NCBI GenBank assembly: GCA_024281175.1
Contig: JAMJTW010000007.1
Location: forward strand, 1 to 64,000
Reading direction: 5' to 3'
DNA from: Candidatus Thiovulum imperiosus
GTDB taxonomy: Bacteria; Campylobacterota; Campylobacteria; Campylobacterales; Thiovulaceae
DNA: 64,000 nt
Positions 19,657 to 60,672 of this stretch are shown here, in pieces. Made by a program: the position numbers and the translations under genes. The notes under the pieces are model-generated. The model was not told the origin of the DNA and made no database searches. It saw only the letters and a program-made list of their open reading frames with translations. Numbering within the stretch: position 1 is the stretch's first letter; the number at the start of each line of letters is the position of its first letter.

Positions 19657-19707
19657 AGAAAAGAGACTTTTGAAAAATTGGAACTTATCGAGGAAATGCC
19701 TTTCTGA
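19657..19707 (+). pseudogene. Remnant of a KilA-N cassette 3' end
   Basis: In-frame RKETFEKLELIEEMPF* matches the C-terminus of KilA-N copies 1, 2 and 4; no upstream gene body. Confidence 0.7.
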
Positions 19708-19751
19708 TAAAATTGTAGTTGCACACAAAAGAAAGGCATCAAAATTATATC
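19697..19751 (+). repeat. Cassette junction repeat 1 (GCCTTTCT 19698-19705 / AGAAAGGC 19730-19737)
   Basis: TGCCTTTCTGATAAAATTGTAGTTGCA...AGAAAGGC...AATTATATC-ATG. Confidence 0.9.
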
Positions 19752-20492
19752 ATGACAAATCAAATAATGACAATTCAAATCGGAAAAGAGTTTACAGTTA
19801 AAATTGGACACAAAACAGAAATGGGAAAACTCAATGATATTTTCACTATTGGAAATAGTTACAGAGAGGCAGAAGGAAAAAAGCTAAAAACAATGGAGCA
19901 GTTCCTTAGTTTACCCGATACTTGGGAATTTATTCTTGAAGCTGAATTAAATGAAAACCCTAATCGTCATAGCGACGATTTGAAAATACCTACAAAAGAT
20001 AGTGGTAAAAAAGTTCTTTATGGTCAAGCAATTAAGAATTTTACTGTAATAAAATCTCAAAGAGGTGGAAAACCTGACAATAGAGGTGTTTGGGCAAATC
20101 TTCACATTTTACTAAAAGCATCTATGTATCTTTCAGCTAAATTAGAATATGAAGTTATTGATGTTTTCATAAATCAAAAAATTCTCTTTTGGAGAGAAGT
20201 TGGTGGAGAAAATTTCAAAGAGTTCAATTCTCTCATTGATACTCTTCCAGATAGAAAAGGAAAAGAGAATAGAAATCTTTATATAGAAATTTCTTTAGAA
20301 ATTCGTAAAAAACTATCTATTCTCTCAACTAAAGGCTATAACGGAAAAGAGCATCATGCACTAATTCAAGAAAATAGAGCAGAGTGGCTTAAAAGTTTGA
20401 ATTTTGCTATCAAAGTTGGATTTATAAAATCTTATGAAGAGTTAAAAGATACTTTTGAAAAGTTGGAAGTCATTGAGGAAATGCCTTTCTGA
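19752..20492 (+). CDS. KilA-N domain protein, copy 1
   Basis: MTNQIMTIQIGKEFTVKIGHKTEMGKLND..., SQRGGKPDNRGVWANLHILLKASMYLSAKLEYEVIDVFINQKIL (KilA-N signature); start set by paralogue alignment. Confidence 0.82.
   Translation: MTNQIMTIQIGKEFTVKIGHKTEMGKLNDIFTIGNSYREAEGKKLKTMEQFLSLPDTWEFILEAELNENPNRHSDDLKIPTKDSGKKVLYGQAIKNFTVIKSQRGGKPDNRGVWANLHILLKASMYLSAKLEYEVIDVFINQKILFWREVGGENFKEFNSLIDTLPDRKGKENRNLYIEISLEIRKKLSILSTKGYNGKEHHALIQENRAEWLKSLNFAIKVGFIKSYEELKDTFEKLEVIEEMPF
19962..19980. repeat. Embedded palindrome AATCGTC-ATAGC-GACGATT in KilA-N copy 1
   Basis: Read directly, 210 nt after the ATG. Confidence 0.75.
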
Positions 20493-20502
20493 TAAAATTG
20501 TA
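20482..20502 (+). repeat. Cassette junction repeat 2, left half only
   Basis: TGCCTTTCTGATAAAATTGTA without the AGAAAGGC right arm; leads into the Type IIG gene. Confidence 0.85.
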
Positions 20503-20515
20503 ATTTTGGAGTTTT

Positions 20516-23515
20516 GTGATGTTTAGTGATAGGGTTTTTAAGAACCATTTAAAAAATATTAAAGAGGCAAAATATGCTGATAGGTTTGGGAACCTAAAAG
20601 ATTTTTTAGCCTCAAAAGAGAATATTTTAAAATCGAAAGAGGAGAATTATCAAGCTGGATTTTTAAATGATATTTTTGTAAAGGTTCTTGGTTACACTCT
20701 ATTTCCTCGTCCAAATTGGAATTTAACAACAGAGTTTAAAAATATTTCAGATTCAAAAAAAGTTGATGGAGCAGTTTTAAAAGATAGAAATCCAATTGCA
20801 GTAGTTGAATTGAAATCTGTTAAGACAAAAATTGAGAAGATAAAAGAACAGGCGTTTTCCTATAAAGATAATCATCCAACTTGTCGCTATGTGATAACTT
20901 CAAACTTTGAGAAAATTCGTCTCTACATAGACCACTCAAACGAGTGGATAGAGTTTGATTTGTTCAATTTAGATTTAGAAGAGTTTAAAAAGTTTTATCT
21001 TCTTCTCTCAAAAGAGTCTCTCTTTGCTGATTTGCCTCAAATTATGAAGAGTGAAGAGAAAAAGAGAAGAGAGAATATTGCTACCGATTTTTATAAAAAC
21101 TATTCAGATATTCGTCTTGAACTTTTTTACAAAATTTTTGAAGAGAACGAAGTTTCAAAAGAGGTTTCACTCTCTTCAGCTCAAAAGATTTTAGACAGAT
21201 TTATATTTCTATTTTTTGCTGAAGATAGGTATCTTTTAAATCCGAAGATTTCAAAAGAGATAATAGAGAAGTGGAATAGAGATTGGGAAAGTAGGGAACT
21301 TTGGCATTTTGTAAAATTAGCTTTTCAAGGAATTGACTCTGGAAATGTTCGAATGGAAATTCCAGCATACAGCGGAGGACTTTTCAGAGAAGATAGAAAT
21401 TTAGATGCTCTAAAAATTAGTGATGGGGTTTTAGAGAAAGCTCTTCTTCTTTCAGAATATGATTATCAAAGTGAGTTAGATGTAAATATTTTGGGACACA
21501 TTTTTGAAAATTCACTCGATGATTTGGAGAAAATTCGAGAGAACCTTTTTGGAGATGAGTTTGAGATAAGTAGGGCGATTAGGAAAAAAGATGGAATTTT
21601 CTACACACCAAAATATATAGTGAAATATATAGTAGAGAATTCAGTTGGAAAGATTTGTAGAGAGAAACGAAAAGAGTTAGATGTTTTTGAGTATCGAAAG
21701 TTTCTGGAAAATCTAAAAATTCTCGACCCCGCTGTTGGAAGTGGAGCATTTCTGAATGGAGTTTTCGATTTTCTAATTGAAGAGTATAGATATGTTCACA
21801 GAGAGATTTCCAAAACATCTAAAGATTTACTCGATTTAGAAAACTTGGATACTCTGATTTTAGAAAATAACCTTTTTGGAATTGATATAAATGTGGAAGC
21901 TGTGGAGATTACGAAACTGTCCCTCTGGTTAAAAACAGCTAAACGGGGGAGAAAACTTACAGATTTAAGTGAAAGTATAAAAGTTGGGAATTCCCTAGTT
22001 GATGAGGTTTTTCCAAATCAGAAATTTGATGTTATTTTGGGAAATCCACCTTACATTAGAATTCAAGGTTTAAAAGATAAGGAGCTGGAGACTGAAAGGT
22101 TTCGGTCTGCTACTGGAAATTATGATATTTATGTTCTTTTTATGGAGAGGGCTTTAGAGATGATTTCAGAAAATGGAAAAGCCTCTTTTATTCTTCCTCA
22201 TAAGTTTCTAATTTCAGAATTTGGAAAAGGAATTAGGGAGGTTCTTTTAGAAAAGAGAGGTTTAGAAAGTTTAGTCCATTTTGGTAGTGAAACAGTTTTT
22301 AAAGACGCTTCAACTTACACATGTATTGTTACTCTTTCAGAGGGAAACGAAAAGATAGAGTTTACTGAAACAGAACCGAGTAAATTAGAAGAGTTAGAAT
22401 TCTCTTCTACTCCATATGAAAATCTCTCTTCTGAAAAATGGATTTTAAAAGATGATAAAACTTCTAAGATATTAGAGAAATTGCAAAAGCAAAAACTTAG
22501 AGCTGGTGATGTTTTTGAAAAGATATTTCAAGGTATAGCGACAAGTGGCGACAAAATATATCTTTTGGAAAAACGGAAAAATGGACTCTACTCAAACTCT
22601 TTAAAAAGAGATGTGGAAATTGAGAATGGACTTCTAAAACCTATTTTAAAAGGTGAAGATATTTCCAGATATGGAGATTTGGAAAATCGATATTTTGTTA
22701 TCTTTCCCTACCTCATCGAAAATGGAAAAGCTACACCTATGAGTGAGAAATATATTTCTGAAAATTTCCCAAATGGATATAAATATCTGAAAGAGAATGA
22801 GAAAGAGTTGCGAAATCGGGAACGGGGGAAAATGAATAGAGATGGCTGGTTTCTCTATATATATCCTAAAAGCTTGACAGAATTTGAACAAGAGAAAATT
22901 GTAAGTCCAGACATAATTCATAAAATGCAATTGAGCTTAGATACAAAAGATTTAATTGTAAAAAATGGAGGTTATGGAATTAAAATTAGAAAAGAGTTCA
23001 AAAAATTTCAGAATGAACTTCTTGCACTTTTAAACTCTTCCTTGATGTGGTTCTTCTTAAAAAATACTGGAACTGAACTCCGTGGAGGATACTTCCGTTT
23101 CAATACAAAATATATTGAACCTTTCCCAATTCCAGATTTAAACAAATTATCAAAAAGTGGAATTTCAAAAAAAGCGAAAAAACTTTTAGAATTGAATTCA
23201 AAATTAAAACTTGAAAAAAACTCATTTCTCGATGAGGTTCGTGAAGATTATGAACTTTCCAAACTCTCTAAAAAACTTCAAAACTTTGAAACTCTCTCTC
23301 TTTCAGATTTTATAAAAGAGATAGCAAAAGCGAAAAAGTGGAAATTGAGTAAGAAAATGGAAAAATATTTAAAAAACCATTGGAAAACTTTCTTTGAAGA
23401 ATCGAAAGAGGAAATTTTAAAAACTTTAAAAGAGATTCATAAACTTGAAACTGAAATTGATGAAAAAGTTTATCAACTCTACAACTTAACTCCAGAAGAG
23501 ATAAAAGAGATATAG
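20516..23515 (+). CDS. Type IIG restriction-modification enzyme (Eco57I-like), copy 1
   Basis: N-term nuclease-like KKVDGAVLKDRNPIAVVELKS; motif I ILDPAVGSGAFL; NPPYIRIQG motif IV; C-term TaqI-like specificity domain. Confidence 0.9.
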   Translation: MMFSDRVFKNHLKNIKEAKYADRFGNLKDFLASKENILKSKEENYQAGFLNDIFVKVLGYTLFPRPNWNLTTEFKNISDSKKVDGAVLKDRNPIAVVELKSVKTKIEKIKEQAFSYKDNHPTCRYVITSNFEKIRLYIDHSNEWIEFDLFNLDLEEFKKFYLLLSKESLFADLPQIMKSEEKKRRENIATDFYKNYSDIRLELFYKIFEENEVSKEVSLSSAQKILDRFIFLFFAEDRYLLNPKISKEIIEKWNRDWESRELWHFVKLAFQGIDSGNVRMEIPAYSGGLFREDRNLDALKISDGVLEKALLLSEYDYQSELDVNILGHIFENSLDDLEKIRENLFGDEFEISRAIRKKDGIFYTPKYIVKYIVENSVGKICREKRKELDVFEYRKFLENLKILDPAVGSGAFLNGVFDFLIEEYRYVHREISKTSKDLLDLENLDTLILENNLFGIDINVEAVEITKLSLWLKTAKRGRKLTDLSESIKVGNSLVDEVFPNQKFDVILGNPPYIRIQGLKDKELETERFRSATGNYDIYVLFMERALEMISENGKASFILPHKFLISEFGKGIREVLLEKRGLESLVHFGSETVFKDASTYTCIVTLSEGNEKIEFTETEPSKLEELEFSSTPYENLSSEKWILKDDKTSKILEKLQKQKLRAGDVFEKIFQGIATSGDKIYLLEKRKNGLYSNSLKRDVEIENGLLKPILKGEDISRYGDLENRYFVIFPYLIENGKATPMSEKYISENFPNGYKYLKENEKELRNRERGKMNRDGWFLYIYPKSLTEFEQEKIVSPDIIHKMQLSLDTKDLIVKNGGYGIKIRKEFKKFQNELLALLNSSLMWFFLKNTGTELRGGYFRFNTKYIEPFPIPDLNKLSKSGISKKAKKLLELNSKLKLEKNSFLDEVREDYELSKLSKKLQNFETLSLSDFIKEIAKAKKWKLSKKMEKYLKNHWKTFFEESKEEILKTLKEIHKLETEIDEKVYQLYNLTPEEIKEI

Positions 23516-23529
23516 AGATTTCGAAAAAG

Positions 23530-23588
23530 TGCCTTTCTGATAAAATTGTAATTGCAAAAAATTCTTAGAAAGGCAACGAAATTATATC
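23530..23588 (+). repeat. Cassette junction repeat 3 (GCCTTTCT 23531-23538 / AGAAAGGC 23567-23574)
   Basis: GCCTTTCTGATAAAATTGTAATTGCA...AGAAAGGCAACGAAATTATATC-ATG. Confidence 0.9.
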
Positions 23589-23810
23589 ATGACAAATCAG
23601 ATGATGACAATTCAAATCGGCAAAGATTACACAGTTCAAGTTGGACATAAAACAGAAATGGGAAAACTTAATGATGTTCTAACAATTGGAAATGAGTATC
23701 GAGAAAAAAGAGGTTTAAGAAAAGTTGAACTGCAAGATTGGTTAAGACTTGAAGCAACTTGGGAATATATTATTGTCCGCTCAAAAACAAAGGAAACACC
23801 AGACTTTTTT

Positions 23811-23833
23811 AAATCAGGTGTCACACCTGATTT
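23811..23833. repeat. Embedded palindrome AAATCAGGTGT-C-ACACCTGATTT in KilA-N copy 2
   Basis: Perfect 11+1+11 inverted repeat, 222 nt after the ATG. Confidence 0.9.
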
Positions 23834-23857
23834 AGATTTTAAGATTTTAAGATTTTA
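23834..23857. repeat. 8-nt tandem repeat AGATTTTA x3
   Basis: Directly abuts the embedded palindrome and causes the frameshift. Confidence 0.9.
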
Positions 23858-24338
23858 AAAGATGTTATTAATAGAGTAAATTACTCGGAAATGATGAAAA
23901 AGTATAAAAATGTTATTTTTTCAAAACGAGGTAAGTATGGCGGAACTTGGGCAGATTTGAGAATTATGCTAGACCTTGCAAATTATCTTGACCCTGTTTT
24001 AAAAGATGAAATGTATGAAGTTTTTATAAATCAAAAAATCCTCTTTTGGAGAGATGTTGGTGGTGAAAACTTCAAAGAGTTCAATTCTCTCATCGACACT
24101 CTTCCAGACCGAAAAGGAAAAAGTAACAGAAATCTCTATATAGAAATCTCTTTAGAAATTCGTAGAAAACTTTCTATTCTCTCTACAAAAGGATATAACG
24201 GAAAAGAGCATCATGCACTAATTCAAGAAAATCGAGCTGAATGGCTTAAAAGTTTGAGTTTTGCAATTAAAGTTGGATTTATAAAATCTTATGAAGAGTT
24301 GAAAGATACTTTTGAAAAGTTGGAAGTTATCGAGGAAA

Positions 24339-24398
24339 TGCCTTTCTGATAAAATTGTAGTTGCAAAATCACAAATAGAAAGGCGACGAAATTATATC
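24339..24398 (+). repeat. Cassette junction repeat 4 (GCCTTTCT 24340-24347 / AGAAAGGC 24377-24384)
   Basis: Same structure; left arm encodes the MPF-stop of copy 2. Confidence 0.9.
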
Positions 24399-25124
24399 AT
24401 GACAAATCAGATGATGAATGTTCAAATCGGAAAAGAGTTCACAGTTCAAATTGGACATAAAACAGAAATGGGAAAACTCAATGATATTTTCACTATTGGA
24501 AATGAGTATCGAAAGAAAAAAGGTCTTCGAGCAGTTGAAATTTATGAGTGGCTTAGAAAAGAGAACACTTGGGAGTTTATTCTTGAAGTAGAACGAAAAT
24601 ATGGGAGTAAATTCCAAACTGCCGAATCGGCAGTTTGCCTTTCAGACCATAAAAACAGTTCTGGAAAAATAGATTTTTCAAAACTCTTGAAGCAGTTTTC
24701 TGTAATAAAATCTCAAAGAGGTGGAAAACCTGAAAATAGAGGATATTGGGCAAACTTGTATATTTTGTTAAAAGCAGGTGCTTTCTTATCTACTAAATTA
24801 GAATTAGAAATTTATGAAGTTTTCATAAATCAAAAAATTCTTTTTTGGAGAGATTTGGGTGGTGAAAACTTCAAAGAGTTCAATTCTCTCATCGACACTC
24901 TTCCAGACCGAAAAGGAAAAAGTAACAGAAATCTCTATATAGAAATTTCTTTGGAAATTCGGCGAAAACTTGAGATTTTAAAAAGCAAAGGATATAACGA
25001 AAAAGAGCATAACGCTTTAATTCAGGAGTCTCGAGCAAATTGGCTTAATGTTTTAAGTTTAGGAATTGGTACTGGAATGATAAAGACCTATAAAGATTTA
25101 ATAACAATTTTAGAGAAACTATGA
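24399..25124 (+). CDS. KilA-N domain protein, copy 3 (C-terminal type B)
   Basis: MTNQMMNVQIGKEF...; SQRGGKPENRGYWANLYILLKAG; ends ILEKL with ATGA overlap to the Type IIG gene. Confidence 0.82.
   Translation: MTNQMMNVQIGKEFTVQIGHKTEMGKLNDIFTIGNEYRKKKGLRAVEIYEWLRKENTWEFILEVERKYGSKFQTAESAVCLSDHKNSSGKIDFSKLLKQFSVIKSQRGGKPENRGYWANLYILLKAGAFLSTKLELEIYEVFINQKILFWRDLGGENFKEFNSLIDTLPDRKGKSNRNLYIEISLEIRRKLEILKSKGYNEKEHNALIQESRANWLNVLSLGIGTGMIKTYKDLITILEKL
24615..24637. repeat. Embedded palindrome CAAACTGCCGA-A-TCGGCAGTTTG in KilA-N copy 3
   Basis: Perfect 11+1+11, 216 nt after the ATG. Confidence 0.95.
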
Positions 25125-28100
25125 AAAAGAGAAACCGAGAGTTTTTAACTTTTGCCTATTCAAATTCTACGATTTCGGAAGAGAAGTTTCGAGGATTTCT
25201 AAGAGAGCTAAAAGTTTATCTTCTAAAAGTAGAAAAGTTGGAATTGGAAGAGAACGGAAAAGAGTATTTGAAAGCTCTATTCCGAAGTGTTGGATTTCAA
25301 GAACATAAAATCGAGGCTTTTAAGAAAGTAGACTTGGCGATTGAAAATCAAGTTTTTATCGAAACAAAACTTCCAAAAAGTTCTGAAATGATTTCAAATT
25401 CTGATTTTAGAAAAAAGGCTTTTGCTCAAATCTGTTACTACACAAAAGAGTTTGGAAGTGCAAATTTGAAGCACCTCATCGCTACTGATTTTCAAAATCT
25501 CTACCTTTTCAAAACAAGAGAGATACAGAAAGTAGATTTAAAGTATCGCAAAAGTGCAAAGACCGATGAGGTCTATCGGGAACTTCAAACTTTAGAAATT
25601 CCAGAATTGGATTTCACAAAAGTTGAGTTTTCGAAATTCCAAATTTCGGAACTTGAGAAACTTGAAAAGGATTTGGAAAGCAACTTCAAACTTAAAAGAG
25701 AACTGACCGCAATTTACAAACTTCTTTCTCCTCAAAATCTGCTAGAAATCGATGTTGGAAAGGATATGAATAGACTCGATTTAGGTTTCTATCATGAACT
25801 TTTACACATCTTTGGAGTTGAGGAAAAAGTGGATAGCGATGGAATTCAGAAGATTTTGAGAAAGCGGGAAAGAGATGCAGGAAGCATTTTAGAACTTGTT
25901 TTTTCTGAAAAGAAGATGGAATTTGAAGAGGCTTTTGAACTCTCTGTAATTTGGCTAAATCGAATTCTCTTTCTGAAACTTCTTGAGGCGAGACTTCGAT
26001 TTATGCACCCAAATTTTCCAAGTTTCATGAACTCCAAAACCCTTCCAGATTTTCGAGCTTTGGAAAATCTCTTTTTTGAAGTTATGGCAAAAAAGAAGAG
26101 AAAAGCTGGACTTGAGAAGTTTTCAAAAATTCCATATATGAACTCTTCACTTTTTGAGAAGAAAGAGTTGGAAGAGAAGTTTTTTGGAATTCGAGATTTG
26201 GACTCCAATTTGGAAATGGAACTTTGGGAAAACTCACTTTTGGGTGAGGGAAAACTGAAAACTTTGGAATACCTTTTCAGATTTCTCGACTCCTACGATT
26301 TTGGAAGTAATAAATTTGAGGAAGTTGCAAAAGAGGATAGAACTCTAATCAAATCTTCTGTTTTGGGTCTTATCTTTGAAAAGGTGAATGGATACAGCGA
26401 GGGTTCTCACTACACTCCAAGTTTCATAACTCAAAAACTTGCAAAAGACTCTTTGAACTCTTTTGAGGGAACTCTTTCAGAAATCAGAGTTCTTGACCCG
26501 TCGGTTGGTTCGGGGCATATTTTAGTTTCGGTTTTGAATGAGTTGGTGCTTCGAGGTGTAGAACTTCCAGACCAATTTGGAAAGAGCCGCAAACTCTCGT
26601 TGGAAAATGATGAAATTCATATTGCCGATGAGGTTCAATATATTGAGGAAAATGGAGTTTTTCCCGCTGAAGCTACTCGAATTCAGGTAGCACTTTTCCA
26701 AAAGGTGAAGAGTGTAATTGAGAAAAATCTTTTTGGAGTTGATATAAATCCAAATTCAGTAGAAATTGCACGATTACGGCTCTGGGTGGAACTTTTGAAG
26801 TGGAGCTATTACGACGAAAACGGAAAGTTTATAACACTACCAAATTTAGATGTAAATGTAAAAGTTGGAAACTCGCTACTTTCCCAATTTCCACTTTCTG
26901 AAAGTTTGGAAAAAATTGGAAAAGAGAAAGTTCTAAGACTTCAGGAACTTGGAAAGAGCTACTTCCATAAAAGCGGTTCTGAGAAGAGAGAAATCGAAAA
27001 AGAGATTTCAGAAATCAGAAGTAGCTTTAGAAAGGAGTTAGAAACTGGTAGTTCTGAAAAGAAAGGAATGCAAAAACTTCTGGAGAGTTTTCTAACTGAA
27101 TTTGAAGAGAATTTTGTTTCAGAATTTCTTGAAATTTATAAGCCTCAAAAACCTCTTTTTAGCGATGAAAAGAAGAAAGGGTATAAAAAGAGACTGAAGC
27201 AGATTTCAGATTTACATGAAAAGATAGAATTCTTGGAACATCTACCAAACGGTTTTGAGTGGAGATTTGAGTTTCCAGATGTTTTAAGAGAAGATGGAAG
27301 TTTTGAGGGATTTGACCTCATCGTCGCAAATCCTCCATATATCAGAATTCAAGGTTTAGATAGAGATATTTCAGACGCTTACAAAAAGATTTACAAATCA
27401 GCAACTGGAAATTACGATATTTATGTTCTTTTTGTAGAGCGGTTTTTAGAACTTCTAAAACCACACGGAAACCTCCATTTCATCATGCCTCATAAATGGA
27501 TAAATTCTGGTTTTGGAAAAGGTCTTCGGGAGCTTACAAAAAAGAAGATTTCCCAATTTATCTCTTTTGGTGAATATCTCGTTTTTGACAATGCGATGAC
27601 TTGCACCTCTTTGGCAATGTTCCACAAAAGAGAGCAGGAAACTCTGAAATATGCCGAGTTTCAGGATAGTTCAAAAAAAGAGAGAATGGAAAAGTGCCGA
27701 AAAGAGAAGAGAATGGAAACCGCAGAGTGCGAACCTCATCTTGAAATTACAGAGTTTCTTGAAACCCTTTCAGAATTTGAAACTATCTCTACGAAAAAGT
27801 TAGGTTCTGAACCTTGGATTTTTAAAAAAGGTGGAATTGTAGAAGTTTTAGAAAAGTTGGAAGAGCAACCTTACAAAGTTTCAGATGTTTTTGAAAAGAT
27901 ATTTACTGGAATTCAAACTAGCGGAGATGACATCTTTCTTCTAAATTTAGATTTCAAATCAAAAGAGATACTTAAAAGAGAGAAAAATGGTGAAAAGTTC
28001 CCAACTTTCAAATTTGAAGAAGAGTTTCTAAAACCAATTCTCAAAGGAAATGATGTTCATCGATACGAAAAACTTCAAAATAAATATTGGGTCATTTTTC

Positions 28101-28879
28101 CTTACAAATTTGTAAATGGTAAAGCTGAACTCTACTCGGAAGAAGAGATTTCTGAAAAGTTTCCAGAAAGCTACAAATATCTGAAATATTTTGAAAAGGA
28201 GTTTAGACAACGGGAACGGGGGAGATTTGATATAGATGGGAAATGGTTTCAATTTGGAAGAAAACAGGGGTTGAATGGTGTTGAAATTGAGAAACTTATG
28301 CAACCAGATATTTCATTTGGCGGTAACTTTGCTTTAGACTCAAAACAAAAGTTTTTCCATTCAACAACTATTTACAGTTGGGTTAAAAAAAAGAGTATCG
28401 AAACAGATTACAAATTCTACTTAGCAATTCTAAATTCAAAAGTGATGTGGTTTTTCATTCGAAATAGGGGAACTGTTTTAGCAAATGGCTATTTCCGATT
28501 TTTACCTAGCTACCTAAACCCTTTCCCACTCCCTGCTCCCTCTCCAGTTTCCGAAAAAGTCCTTTCAACTCTTGTAGATTTTGTGCTTTTTGAAAAGGAG
28601 ATTTCCCCAAAAGAGAGGAACACAGAACTTCTTGAAAGTGTAATTGACATAGTAGTTTTCAATCTCTATTTTGAAGAAGAGATGAAAAAAGCTGACTGTT
28701 ATATTCTTGATAGACTTTTTGAAAAATTGCAACCTTTGGAAAATTTTGAAGATTTGGAAACAAAACGAGAATATTTAAAAGCTGTTGAAAACTTTTTTAA
28801 TAAAGACTCTAAAATTAAAAGAAGTTTGATTTTTTCATATAAACTTATCGATGAGGTGCAAATTATAAATGGCAAATGA
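25121..28879 (+). CDS. Type IIG restriction-modification enzyme (Eco57I-like), copy 2
   Basis: N-term KVDLAIENQVFIETK nuclease-like; VLDPSVGSGHIL motif I; ANPPYIRIQG motif IV. Confidence 0.9.
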   Translation: MKKRNREFLTFAYSNSTISEEKFRGFLRELKVYLLKVEKLELEENGKEYLKALFRSVGFQEHKIEAFKKVDLAIENQVFIETKLPKSSEMISNSDFRKKAFAQICYYTKEFGSANLKHLIATDFQNLYLFKTREIQKVDLKYRKSAKTDEVYRELQTLEIPELDFTKVEFSKFQISELEKLEKDLESNFKLKRELTAIYKLLSPQNLLEIDVGKDMNRLDLGFYHELLHIFGVEEKVDSDGIQKILRKRERDAGSILELVFSEKKMEFEEAFELSVIWLNRILFLKLLEARLRFMHPNFPSFMNSKTLPDFRALENLFFEVMAKKKRKAGLEKFSKIPYMNSSLFEKKELEEKFFGIRDLDSNLEMELWENSLLGEGKLKTLEYLFRFLDSYDFGSNKFEEVAKEDRTLIKSSVLGLIFEKVNGYSEGSHYTPSFITQKLAKDSLNSFEGTLSEIRVLDPSVGSGHILVSVLNELVLRGVELPDQFGKSRKLSLENDEIHIADEVQYIEENGVFPAEATRIQVALFQKVKSVIEKNLFGVDINPNSVEIARLRLWVELLKWSYYDENGKFITLPNLDVNVKVGNSLLSQFPLSESLEKIGKEKVLRLQELGKSYFHKSGSEKREIEKEISEIRSSFRKELETGSSEKKGMQKLLESFLTEFEENFVSEFLEIYKPQKPLFSDEKKKGYKKRLKQISDLHEKIEFLEHLPNGFEWRFEFPDVLREDGSFEGFDLIVANPPYIRIQGLDRDISDAYKKIYKSATGNYDIYVLFVERFLELLKPHGNLHFIMPHKWINSGFGKGLRELTKKKISQFISFGEYLVFDNAMTCTSLAMFHKREQETLKYAEFQDSSKKERMEKCRKEKRMETAECEPHLEITEFLETLSEFETISTKKLGSEPWIFKKGGIVEVLEKLEEQPYKVSDVFEKIFTGIQTSGDDIFLLNLDFKSKEILKREKNGEKFPTFKFEEEFLKPILKGNDVHRYEKLQNKYWVIFPYKFVNGKAELYSEEEISEKFPESYKYLKYFEKEFRQRERGRFDIDGKWFQFGRKQGLNGVEIEKLMQPDISFGGNFALDSKQKFFHSTTIYSWVKKKSIETDYKFYLAILNSKVMWFFIRNRGTVLANGYFRFLPSYLNPFPLPAPSPVSEKVLSTLVDFVLFEKEISPKERNTELLESVIDIVVFNLYFEEEMKKADCYILDRLFEKLQPLENFEDLETKREYLKAVENFFNKDSKIKRSLIFSYKLIDEVQIINGK

Positions 28880-30302
28880 TTTTGGTTTAGAACCAGAAAT
28901 TATAAATTCTGTTGGTCTCAAAATTGAGAGTTTAGAATTAGAAAATTTCCGTTTTTTTGGAACTGACAATAATGTTTTTACTCTTAATTCGCAAAACACT
29001 CTAATTTATGGAGAAAATGGCTCTGGAAAAAGTTCTATTTTTAGAGCTTTTGAAATTTTAGGTAAAGAAAAAATATCTTCTAAAGAGTGGAAAGAGAATA
29101 AAAATATCTATTCTGATACTTACACTTTAATCAAACTCTCTCTCTCAAATGGAAACGAATTTCTTTTAGATGACGATCATTTAGAAATTGCTGATTTCCA
29201 AAAAGAGCTATCAATTTTAAAACCATTTCTTGATTACAAATCTCTCTTAAAAATTAATTATCGAGATTTGGATTTTCACTCTAAAAAGATAAATATTTAT
29301 TCAATTGTGAAAGAGCTTTTTAAAAACTATCCTATTGGAGACAATTTAACTTTAAGTTCAATTAAAAATCCAGACAAATATTTTGAAAAACTAGAGTATA
29401 TTTTGAATTCTCTTCTTCCAGATATTCAGAGCTTTTTGAGTAAATTTTCAGATAACTTTTGGATCGATCAATTTGTCTTTTTAAAACAGTTTACTGATGA
29501 TGATAGAGTTGAGTTTGTCGTTAATATAAATCTTGGATATGCTGAAGAGACCATTGAAAAGCATCATCTCTTTTTCAATGAAGCGAAACTCTCCTCTCTT
29601 GCAATTTCAATATATTTCGCAATTATTAAAGAGTTCTCAACTTTTCAAAATGAAAATGCCCTCAAAATCTTAACTCTTGATGATCTTCTTATCTCTCTCG
29701 ATATGTCGAATAGAATGAAACTCCTGCCAGTTTTGAGAGATGACTTTTCTGACTTTCAAATAATTTTCTTGACTCACGATAAAGAACTCTTTGAAATTTA
29801 TAAAAATGAGAAGGATAGCCCTTTTAAAAATGGAAAAAAGTTTGAAATCTATTTAGACGAGAGTTCTGAAATTGAGAAACCTTTTGTAAAAGAGCATCTG
29901 GATTATTTCCAAACAGCTCGAAAATATTTTGATGAATTTGATTATCCTGCCTCTGCAAACTATTTGCGAAAAGAGGTTGAACGGCTTAAAGAAATTAAGC
30001 AAAAACAGGAAAATAGCAAACAGAATAAAAACGATATTTTCAAAAAATTTCAGAAACTTCTCCAAAATACAGATTTAAAAAACTCTGAAAATCATTCTAA
30101 AGTTGTTGGCAAACTTATCGGTTTTAAAAAAGGCTTTGAGACTGAAACCTCTTCAGAAATTGAATTCGATTTAACTGAAATTAAATCTATTACAGATCGG
30201 ATTTTAAATCCATTTTCTCACAATGACAATTCTAAACCTCTTTACAAAAGTGAGTTGGAAAATGCTTTAGATATTGTTGAAAAGATTAGAAATCAAATTT
30301 AA
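28869..30302 (+). CDS. RecF/SMC-like AAA ATPase
   Basis: LENFRFFG...NTLIYGENGSGKSSIFRAFEIL Walker A; LTLDDLLISLDMSNR Walker B region; overlaps the Type IIG gene by 11 nt. Confidence 0.8.
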   Translation: MANDFGLEPEIINSVGLKIESLELENFRFFGTDNNVFTLNSQNTLIYGENGSGKSSIFRAFEILGKEKISSKEWKENKNIYSDTYTLIKLSLSNGNEFLLDDDHLEIADFQKELSILKPFLDYKSLLKINYRDLDFHSKKINIYSIVKELFKNYPIGDNLTLSSIKNPDKYFEKLEYILNSLLPDIQSFLSKFSDNFWIDQFVFLKQFTDDDRVEFVVNINLGYAEETIEKHHLFFNEAKLSSLAISIYFAIIKEFSTFQNENALKILTLDDLLISLDMSNRMKLLPVLRDDFSDFQIIFLTHDKELFEIYKNEKDSPFKNGKKFEIYLDESSEIEKPFVKEHLDYFQTARKYFDEFDYPASANYLRKEVERLKEIKQKQENSKQNKNDIFKKFQKLLQNTDLKNSENHSKVVGKLIGFKKGFETETSSEIEFDLTEIKSITDRILNPFSHNDNSKPLYKSELENALDIVEKIRNQI

Positions 30303-30320
30303 ATGAGAAATTCTGAACTA

Positions 30321-30378
30321 TGCCTTTCTGATAAAATTGTAGTTGCACACAAATATTAGAAAGGCAACAAATTATATC
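30321..30378 (+). repeat. Cassette junction repeat 5 (GCCTTTCT 30322-30329 / AGAAAGGC 30358-30365)
   Basis: Same structure, upstream of KilA-N copy 4. Confidence 0.9.
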
Positions 30379-31128
30379 ATGACAAATCAGATGATGAATG
30401 TTCAAATCGGAAAAGAGTTCACTGTTCAAATTGGACACAAAACAGAAATGGGGAAACTCAATGATGTTCTAACAATTGGAAATGAGTATCGAAAGAGAAA
30501 AGGTCTTCGAGAAATTGAGATGAGAGAGTGGTTAGCAAAAGAAACAACTTGGGAGTTTATCCTTGAAGTAGAGCGAGAATTTGGGAATAAATTCCAAACT
30601 CCCGATTCGGGAGTTTGCCTTTCAGACTACAAAAATATTTATGGAAAAATAGAATTCGCTCAACTTATCAAGCAATTTTCCGTAATAAAGTCTCAAAGAG
30701 GTGGAAAACCTGAAAATAGAGGATATTGGGCAAACTTGTATATTATGTTAGACCTTGCCAGTCATCTTTCATCAACTTTGAAACTTGAGATGTATAAAGT
30801 TTTCATAAATCAGAAAATCCTTTTTTGGAGAGATTTGGGTGGTGAAAATTTCAAAGAGTTCAATTCTCTCATCGACACTCTGCCCGACCGAAAAGGAAAA
30901 AATAACAGAAATCTCTATATAGAAATCTCTTTGGAAATTCGGCGAAAACTCTCTATTCTTTCTACAAAAGGCTACAATGAAAAAGAACATCATGCACTAA
31001 TTCAAGAAAATAGAGCTGAATGGTTAAAGAGTTTAAATTTTGCTATCAAAGTTGGATTTATAAAATCTTATGAAGAACTTAAAGATACTTTTGAAAAGTT
31101 GGAACTTATTGAGGAGATGCCTTTCTGA
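30379..31128 (+). CDS. KilA-N domain protein, copy 4
   Basis: MTNQMMNVQIGKEF...; SQRGGKPENRGYWANLYIMLDLASHLSSTLKLEMYKVFINQKIL. Confidence 0.85.
   Translation: MTNQMMNVQIGKEFTVQIGHKTEMGKLNDVLTIGNEYRKRKGLREIEMREWLAKETTWEFILEVEREFGNKFQTPDSGVCLSDYKNIYGKIEFAQLIKQFSVIKSQRGGKPENRGYWANLYIMLDLASHLSSTLKLEMYKVFINQKILFWRDLGGENFKEFNSLIDTLPDRKGKNNRNLYIEISLEIRRKLSILSTKGYNEKEHHALIQENRAEWLKSLNFAIKVGFIKSYEELKDTFEKLELIEEMPF
30595..30617. repeat. Embedded palindrome CAAACTCCCGA-T-TCGGGAGTTTG in KilA-N copy 4
   Basis: Perfect 11+1+11, 216 nt after the ATG; differs from copy 3 by a compensated G-to-C pair. Confidence 0.95.
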
Positions 31129-31177
31129 TAAAATTGTAATTGCAAAACATTTTGAAGAAAGGCAATGAAATTATATC
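31118..31177 (+). repeat. Cassette junction repeat 6 (GCCTTTCT 31119-31126 / AGAAAGGC 31156-31163)
   Basis: Same structure; left arm encodes the MPF-stop of copy 4. Confidence 0.9.
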
Positions 31178-31891
31178 ATGACAAATCAGATGATGAATGT
31201 TCAAATCGGAAAAGAGTTCACTATTAAAATTGGACACAAAACAGAAATGGGAAAACTCAACGATGTTTTGACAATTGGAAATGAGTATCGCAAGAGAAAA
31301 GGTTATCAAAAGATAGGTTTAGATGAGTATTTACGAAGAACAGAAACTTGGGAATTTATTTTTGAGGTTGAAGAGAAATACGGTAAAACCACAAACCGGG
31401 AAATTCCCGGTTTGGAAAAAGACGACAAAAACAGAGTTCTTTATAGCAAACTTATGAAAAACTTTTCAGTGATTAAATCTCAAAGAGGTGGAAAAGTTGA
31501 AAATCGTGGAGTTTGGGCTAACTTGCAAATTATGCTTGATTTGGCAATCTATTTATCTCCTACTCTTAGATTAGAAATGATAGATGTTTTCATAAATCAG
31601 AAAATTCTTTTTTGGAGAGATTTGGGTGGAGAAAATTTCAAAGAGTTCAATTCTCTCATCGACACTCTGCCAGACCGAAAAGGAAAAAATAACAGAAATC
31701 TCTATATAGAAATCTCTTTGGAAATTCGGCGAAAACTTGAGATTTTGAAAAGCAAAGGATATAACGAAAAAGAGCATAACGCTTTAATTCAGGAGTCTCG
31801 AGCAAATTGGCTTAATGTTTTAAGTTTAGGAATTGGTGCTGGAATGATAAAAACCTATGAAGATTTAATAAAAATTTTAGAGAAATTATGA
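31178..31891 (+). CDS. KilA-N domain protein, copy 5 (C-terminal type B)
   Basis: MTNQMMNVQIGKEFTIKIGHKTEMGKLNDVLTIGNEY; SQRGGKVENRGVWANLQIMLDLAIYLSPTLRLEMIDVFINQKIL. Confidence 0.85.
   Translation: MTNQMMNVQIGKEFTIKIGHKTEMGKLNDVLTIGNEYRKRKGYQKIGLDEYLRRTETWEFIFEVEEKYGKTTNREIPGLEKDDKNRVLYSKLMKNFSVIKSQRGGKVENRGVWANLQIMLDLAIYLSPTLRLEMIDVFINQKILFWRDLGGENFKEFNSLIDTLPDRKGKNNRNLYIEISLEIRRKLEILKSKGYNEKEHNALIQESRANWLNVLSLGIGAGMIKTYEDLIKILEKL
31392..31414. repeat. Embedded palindrome CAAACCGGGAA-A-TTCCCGGTTTG in KilA-N copy 5
   Basis: Perfect 11+1+11, 214 nt after the ATG. Confidence 0.95.
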
Positions 31892-37864: not shown

Positions 37865-38569
37865 TCAAAGAAGAGTTTCTAGTTTCCATTTGAGTTGGTG
37901 GTAAGTTCCACCAATTTCCACTCCAAACTCTTTTCCACTCTCTGTAAGTTTCCAAATTCCATCCTGCTTTTCTTGGAAGCCACGCTTTTCCAAAAGTAGG
38001 TTCGTTTCCCGTCCTGAAAGTCCGTGAAGTTTACCAAGTTCTGTTGGGAGGAAGTAGGTGTTTTGGAAATCGATACCGAAGAGACTTGAAATAGAATTCT
38101 CTTTTAGGAGTTTTTGGAGAAGCAAAAGGTGGAAAGGTTTGGTTTCCTCGAAAAGTTCCACGAGTTTTTTAGCTTCTTCATTTTGGGAAAGAATTTCGGA
38201 AAAGTTTGGGAGTTCTGAAAGAGAGTAGCTTCCTGTTTTTCTGATAGAGGGGAGGACAACTCTGGCTACCCAATGCCGAAAACGGATAGCCTCTTCTTTT
38301 CGAGAAACAAAAGCCAATTCATAAAGTCCTGCTTCTGAAACAATGGTAACTTCCTGTGTTCGATTTAAGGAGTCTTTTATGGGGTAAGTCTGACTTACCT
38401 CATCTTTTACCCCACCTTTTTGAAGTCTTGTTTTCATGTCTATCAATGCCTGTTTATGGTTTGAAAGTTCAAGCACTTTTCCAATATCTTTTAAAACAAA
38501 CCAAGGCTCATTATCTATTAATATGGTTCTAATTGAATTGTTATTAAAATCAAATGAAAGTAGTTTCAT
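37865..38569 (-). CDS. Bro-N (BRO family, prophage antirepressor) protein
   Basis: IRTILIDNEPWFVLKDIGKVLELSNHKQALIDM...EVTIVSEAGLYELAFVSRKEEAIRFRHWVARVVLPSIRKTGSY. Confidence 0.9.
   Translation of the reverse strand: MKLLSFDFNNNSIRTILIDNEPWFVLKDIGKVLELSNHKQALIDMKTRLQKGGVKDEVSQTYPIKDSLNRTQEVTIVSEAGLYELAFVSRKEEAIRFRHWVARVVLPSIRKTGSYSLSELPNFSEILSQNEEAKKLVELFEETKPFHLLLLQKLLKENSISSLFGIDFQNTYFLPTELGKLHGLSGRETNLLLEKRGFQEKQDGIWKLTESGKEFGVEIGGTYHQLKWKLETLL
38383..38399. repeat. Embedded palindrome GGTAAGTC-T-GACTTACC in the Bro-N gene
   Basis: Perfect 8+1+8, inside the variable region; a second nested GGGGTAA/TTACCCC pair flanks it. Confidence 0.85.
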
Positions 38570-38887: not shown

Positions 38888-38927
38888 GTAGAAAAGTTGA
38901 ATTCTTAAAAACCGTGTGTCATTGCCT

Positions 38928-39053
38928 AACTCCATTAGGCAATCTGGATATTCGGGTCAAGCCTGAATATGACGAAAAGAGGAAGCCCGTCATTTCGAAC
39001 CCTTTTGGGTGAGAAATCCTTGTATTGAATAAAGTGAAATGACAAATGCGACG
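38928..39053. repeat. Two juxtaposed palindromic repeat fragments
   Basis: GTCATTGCCTAACTCCATTAGGCAATCTGG...CCTGAATATGAC followed by GTCATTTCGAACCCTTTTGGGTGAGAAATCC...GAAATGAC. Confidence 0.7.
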
Positions 39054-60627: not shown

Positions 60628-60639
60628 AATTAGATTTTG

Positions 60640-60672
60640 AATTTGGAATCCAGTCTCGGATTCCAAATTTTT
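60640..60672 (+). terminator. Probable Rho-independent terminator
   Basis: AATTTGGAATCC-agtctc-GGATTCCAAATTTTT hairpin just after the GGDEF stop. Confidence 0.65.

Follow-up and report, generated by a model that had tools for sequence, protein, structure and literature searches.

Palindromes within kilA-N genes as predicted cognate binding sites of the proteins they encode

In the window, by which we mean the first 64 kb of contig 7 of the 2.2-Mb genome of Candidatus Thiovulum imperiosus, five genes for KilA-N DNA-binding proteins each carry an inverted repeat within the coding sequence, at the same site and with arms that differ from gene to gene, and this raises the question why a palindrome is kept in the middle of a gene while its sequence changes. 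Few DNA-binding domains are as widespread in phages and mobile elements as KilA-N, and to our knowledge little has been learned of its targets. In the open-access literature we found no report of palindromes or of an intragenic cognate site in kilA-N genes. The feature is wider than the five copies initially described and spans phyla: a palindrome is found at a fixed place with paired substitutions, and in canonical KilA-N genes the part of the protein with which its arms specifically co-vary is the predicted recognition helix. As the arms change in step with this helix, each protein very probably recognizes its own gene, and we hold it to be likely that each palindrome is a cognate DNA-binding site, predicted from sequence, of the KilA-N protein from the same gene.

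Palindromes of the window and of the Thiovulum-type family

The genes and their palindromes are listed here (ORF, open reading frame; PF04383, the Pfam family of KilA-N/APSES domains, gathering score 23.8 bits).

19752..20492, + strand: KilA-N copy 1 gene, 246 aa (ORF; PF04383 E=8e-6, 26.1 bits)
19962..19980, unstranded: copy 1 palindrome, weak, AATCGTC-atagc-GACGATT, 7-bp arms, 5-nt loop; 8/11 pairs in the common register
23589..24349, + strand: KilA-N copy 2 gene, broken into ORFs 23589-23858 and 23891-24349
23810..23834, unstranded: copy 2 palindrome, TAAATCAGGTGT-c-ACACCTGATTTA, perfect, 12-bp arms, 1-nt centre
24399..25124, + strand: KilA-N copy 3 gene (ORF; PF04383 E=6e-5, 23.4 bits)
24615..24637, unstranded: copy 3 palindrome, CAAACTGCCGA-a-TCGGCAGTTTG, perfect, 11-bp arms, 1-nt centre
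30379..31128, + strand: KilA-N copy 4 gene (ORF; PF04383 E=3e-5, 24.3 bits)
30595..30617, unstranded: copy 4 palindrome, CAAACTCCCGA-t-TCGGGAGTTTG, perfect, 11-bp arms, 1-nt centre
31178..31891, + strand: KilA-N copy 5 gene (ORF; PF04383 E=7e-5, 23.1 bits)
31392..31414, unstranded: copy 5 palindrome, CAAACCGGGAA-a-TTCCCGGTTTG, other codon phase, perfect, 11-bp arms, 1-nt centre

The first-pass annotation had described a near-perfect inverted repeat in each of the five KilA-N genes, 210-222 nt after the conserved ATG. All five sequences lie where it had placed them and at that distance, and the repeats of copies 2-5 are in fact perfect, whereas that of copy 1 is much weaker. Every gene has its palindrome, with the correction that the gene of copy 2 is broken and its palindrome intact. 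Note that, of the five, this broken gene has the longest perfect palindrome. The difference in codon phase was also borne out, with centres at +56 from the conserved W codon in copies 3 and 4 and at +54 in copy 5. Copies 1 and 4 pass the Pfam cutoff and copies 3 and 5 narrowly miss it, so that the window proteins are borderline members of the family. When codons were shuffled with the peptide held fixed, P values of 0.063, 0.025, 0.072, 0.047 and 0.0001 were obtained for copies 1-5; taken singly, and by this conservative test, the window copies are only suggestive, save copy 5.

Palindromes in the same loop occur in contig-9 paralogues, in homologues of the same genus, in Ca. T. stygium and Ca. 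T. karukerense and in gammaproteobacterial genomes. Among 22 homologous loops, 11/11 pairs are formed in 10, 10/11 in six, 9/11 in three and 8/11 in three, and the 19 that keep at least 9/11 pairs do so with differing sequences. The centre, which nearly always reads R-A-W-T-Y, is found in each of the three codon phases (2, 0 and 1) with unrelated peptides, CAAA(C)...(G)TTTG is a frequent outer frame, and the middle of the arm varies together with its complement.

The palindrome background was assessed by pattern searches and in a 400-kb sample of Ca. T. stygium, which holds 47 perfect palindromes with arms of at least 9; among those with arms of at least 10, all but one have a GC content of 20% or less. 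The frame AAACN5ANTN5GTTT has 12 matches genome-wide, and the four of them that are palindromes all lie inside kilA-N genes, including a sixth kilA-N gene on contig 14 (CAAACTCTGGAATCCAGAGTTTG). A reading of the Thiovulum frame as a dispersed repeat was dropped, as CAAACTN4AWTN4AGTTTG has 80 sites in viral contigs with one perfect palindrome, which is chance level. A search for relatives of the Thiovulum-type protein gave no close one in viral contigs or plasmids and one distant KilA in phages. On contig 25 of the same genome, genes of another KilA-N subfamily (L251, L252) contain the coding near-palindrome CGTTTCGCAAATATGCGAAACG, so that the feature may extend further.

Canonical kilA-N genes and the level of constraint

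A PF04383 scan of Campylobacterota revealed ordinary KilA-N genes with longer palindromes, reaching 34 bp, in the corresponding position, and the addition of plasmid, phage and IMG/VR loci brought the set of these canonical genes to 105 distinct members. Their proteins are members of the family in the full sense, L333 and L266 scoring 84 and 80 bits. At one fixed position, 102 or 96 nt 5' of the codons for an R-Y-G-G-T motif, at least 10/14 pairs are formed in 102 of the 105 genes; the palindrome is absent from one small group (L309, L310, L338). Its frame of 24-34 bp, TTTTAA-N6-CGAATTCG-N6'-TTAAAA, encodes F-(K/N)-x-x-E-F-x-x-(F/I)-K. The carriers belong to Campylobacterota, Bacteroidota, Gammaproteobacteria and Bacillota and include plasmids and phages; Parabacteroides distasonis, Alistipes, Haliscomenobacter, Xenorhabdus, Streptococcus satellite phages and Staphylococcus phage EW are examples. 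No sequence relative of canonical KilA-N was found among solved structures, nor an NCBIfam model, and Foldseek returned as its top match, a weak one, the dimeric DNA-binding protein DdrC (E=0.012). In one gammaproteobacterial locus, L037, domain V of a group II intron (248-327) stands directly upstream of the kilA-N gene.

The palindrome could in principle be a by-product of a conserved loop peptide, and the conservation of the canonical E-F centre, which GAATTC encodes, and of the F-K/N flanks would agree with this. When synonymous codons were exchanged in 87 canonical genes, however, 6.8 of 12 pairs were expected while 11.0 are observed (z=30), and the Thiovulum-type palindrome is kept in three phases with unrelated peptides, so that a constraint on the peptide is hardly conceivable as the cause. 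The excess over the codon-shuffled control in homologues is the outcome that the first-pass annotation had anticipated, and its view that selection acts on nucleic acid and not on the peptide stands: besides the use of three codon phases, AT, TA, GC and CG pairs are all found at arm positions 5-10, with 84-93% pairing. Re-pairing right arms among genes lowered the outer pairs from 8.21 to 5.07 of 9, with a null maximum of 5.59.

Another of the options that had been raised is an RNA hairpin that would work in the mRNA in translation control or RNase processing. Perfect stems of 11-17 bp would fold in a transcript, and in phages some of the sites are close to start codons. Against this, GAATTC or RAWTY at the centre is itself self-complementary where a loop must be unpaired, and the mismatches comprise 7 G.T against 19 A.C, so that there is no excess of G.U wobble. 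Rfam yielded no family at the palindromes of nine loci, its sole match being the intron upstream of the gene in L037, and the coupling of the arms to a DNA-recognition helix, described below, is not what a hairpin would call for. From the lack of a G.U excess and the symmetry that runs on through the centre, DNA is favoured over an RNA hairpin, which we regard as very improbable.

Covariation of the arms with the recognition helix

Because the family of the window proteins has too few sequences, the relation between protein and palindrome was analyzed in canonical genes, using 86 of less than 90% identity and excluding the protein columns that the palindrome itself encodes. Of about 250 columns, 42, 45, 46 and 41 carry the highest mutual information with the arm bases. 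They sit just before an N-W-L-R motif, in the predicted recognition helix, and map to helix 24-33 in the AlphaFold model of L266 (pLDDT 88); the model of a window protein is poor, with a pLDDT of 68. Distances in the helix columns correlate with distances between arms with a partial r of 0.643 when the C-terminal domain is controlled for, while 2000 random sets of six variable columns gave 0.057 +/- 0.062, with a maximum of 0.315. The segment between helix and palindrome is physically closer and reaches only 0.21, so that the effect goes beyond what linkage by itself could account for. Reduced to a single gene for each arm allele (N=37), the set still shows the helix effect, at 0.419.

In this reduced set the best pairs of column and arm position are 46-5, 42-6, 45-7, 41-8 and 40-9, that is, the pairing of helix and arm is a collinear code. 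Helix P-K-D-V is found with arms AGGGGT or AGGTGT, P-R-F or P-R-I with CCGTGT or CCGTAT, P-A-D with ACTGGT, R-A-A-D with AGTGGT and D-F-F-I-S-D with TTATGG. The suggestion that the palindrome is each protein's own operator embedded in its gene, a self-addressed site, gains support from this covariation. The palindrome would then be the built-in self-address of its kilA-N gene, and a winged helix-turn-helix homodimer would read both variable half-sites by means of the recognition helix that immediately precedes the conserved W-L-R motif, so that protein and site, about 80 bp apart, may evolve as a linked pair. Direct binding by a dimer, and what follows from it, we infer from these sequence relations, and for the Thiovulum copies the same mechanism is suggested by homology with the canonical family.

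Several observations weigh against this reading. Column 89, outside the helix, tops the test with one gene per allele (N=37). Copy 4 and its contig-14 paralogue share the helix REIEMREW and have arms TCCCGA and TCTGGA, respectively, a pair that argues against a simple code. The variable half-sites are about 14 bp apart, wider than in a classical helix-turn-helix dimer, and the window proteins have no match in PADLOC. Finally, palindromes that stand alone could indicate a mobile element instead.

The latter were searched for in IMG/VR with TTAAN6CGAATTCGN6TTAA, which has at least 120 matches there. Among the matches listed, to which all figures given here refer, there are at least 80 unique sites without recognizable kilA-N sequence nearby. 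In 54 of the 80 no more than two of the six free pairs are mismatched, where about 3 such sites would be expected, and 81 of the 160 half-sites are an exact kilA-N arm allele, against 16 (maximum 27) in column-shuffled controls. Many of these sites occupy short gaps upstream of a ribosome-binding site and a few are in tandem; in Streptococcus phage Javan117 one stands between capsid genes, in Lactobacillus phage LR1 one stands beside an integrase. Part of them may be remnants of kilA-N genes overlooked by the text search.

A small mobile palindromic element, of the kind known from Rickettsia, or template-switch mutation might have made the palindromes without the protein reading them. In favor of such an origin, stand-alone palindromes of the same type do occur in phage genomes, some in tandem arrays with different arm alleles whose neighbors share TTTAA (L398, L411, L419, L394), and one (L370, 2574-2601) lies at the junction of two phage segments with different relatives; template switching is known to perfect quasipalindromes. 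Empty-site homologues of the stand-alone palindromes were looked for in phages and none was found. Rickettsia palindromic elements are repeats of about 100-150 bp scattered over many unrelated genes. They resemble the present case as palindromic DNA inside protein-coding genes that is tolerated in different frames, and differ in that kilA-N sites measure 23-34 bp, occur once per kilA-N gene and have diverged arms. Their type of dispersal is not seen here: the frame palindromes of the Thiovulum genome are confined to kilA-N genes, and 300 Campylobacterales genomes hold 22 sites (1 control match), at most two per genome and most of them at independently located kilA-N genes. Given the one fixed codon position across phyla, and since neither a mobile element nor template switching predicts a collinear coupling to residues of the recognition helix, we consider an origin of this kind improbable. 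A part in recombination, the third option of the first-pass annotation, or in mobility is conceivable, above all for the stand-alone palindromes of phages. Rickettsia-type elements, REP transposase hairpins and integron attC sites had been entertained as models and were dropped for lack of fit.

Possible consequences of the predicted binding and the context of the locus

The closest parallel to the predicted self-address is BstA, an abortive-infection protein of prophage BTP1, whose DNA-based cognate self-immunity element, aba, overlaps its own gene (Owen et al. 2021, PMC8585504). Both systems have a KilA-N or KilA-N-like DNA-binding domain and a short DNA element within their own locus that overlaps coding sequence, and aba is cognate, allele-specific, DNA-based and prophage-borne (PMC8585504). 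In contrast to the mid-gene palindrome of kilA-N, aba, 63 bp long, is located at the beginning of bstA, has direct CCCGCC repeats at its ends and is no palindrome, nor does the bstA gene contain a strong one. BstA has its own PADLOC model and no Pfam KilA-N match, BLASTP of BstA against canonical L333 gave no significant match, and PADLOC found no BstA among window or canonical KilA-N proteins. The principle would be the same; protein family and element differ. Canonical KilA-N proteins do match PADLOC PDC-S22, a candidate defense family, with E about 1e-134, while copies 4 and 5 of the window do not; PADLOC assigns PDC-S22 no mechanism, and the paper that we found naming it is a genome survey.

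Palindromic sites for dimeric DNA-binding proteins inside their own genes have other precedents, parS reportedly lying within parB/spo0J and the operator of PurR within purR. We know of no report in which these sites diversify allele by allele together with a recognition helix while keeping one codon position across phyla. Binding may be real and serve solely intragenic autorepression, as a road-block to transcription without self-immunity. Many regulators autoregulate, the PHROGs label of the family is transcriptional regulator, and a full second copy of the palindrome was found neither in phage EW, Javan588, Javan625 and a Bernardetia plasmid nor, for the window palindromes, within the 64-kb window. 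A regulon inside the former four elements is thus unsupported. On the other hand, dozens of diverged specificities are unneeded in an autorepressor unless alleles come into contact and have to disregard one another, and the family is a PADLOC defense candidate. We therefore rate pure autorepression as possible and lean, tentatively, toward self-recognition in the manner of aba, on the grounds of the dozens of diverged alleles, the prophage- and satellite-borne defense-candidate family and the single full site in the four phage and plasmid records.

The remaining features of the locus are as follows.

20516..23515, + strand: type IIG restriction-methylation enzyme between copies 1 and 2 (Pfam Eco57I; PADLOC REase_MTase_IIG E=2e-166)
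25121..28879, + strand: second type IIG restriction-methylation enzyme, between copies 3 and 4 (Pfam; PADLOC E=7e-187)
28869..30302, + strand: SMC/AAA-like ATPase (weak matches to PtuA-type models)
19698..19737, unstranded: upstream inverted repeat GCCTTTCT...AGAAAGGC around the -10-like GATAAAAT of copy 1
37865-38569: Bro-N domain gene, with an inverted repeat nearby at 38921-38943
60640-60669: inverted repeat AATTTGGAATCC-agtctc-GGATTCCAAATT, 12-bp arms, near the start of the ORF at 60637; besides copies 2-5 the one perfect inverted repeat with arms of at least 11 bp in the window

From 19752 to 31891 the KilA-N copies are interleaved with the two type IIG enzymes and the SMC-like ATPase, as if repeated kilA-N units flanked exchangeable defense cassettes. 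The upstream repeat, possibly an operator or a structure in the 5' untranslated region, also precedes copies 2-5 (from 23531, 24340, 30322 and 31119), and its arms change together as well, since they read GCCTTTTG...CAAAAGGC in the contig-9 paralogues.

If each kilA-N gene carries its own target, the databases already hold many matched pairs of protein and site, from which a recognition code for KilA-N binding could be read, and use in self-regulation or in self/non-self recognition is suggested. The principle of BstA and aba, in which a gene harbors the cognate DNA element that controls its protein product, would be extended to a family that spans several phyla, and it would be predictable which phage genomes carry matching sites. 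It is also conceivable, if on the doubtful side, that KilA-N genes are allele-specific self/non-self modules in which the palindrome marks self and the stand-alone palindromes of phages are passports or targets for matching alleles; phages would then interact, by way of these passports or targets, with hosts or prophages that carry the matching KilA-N alleles.
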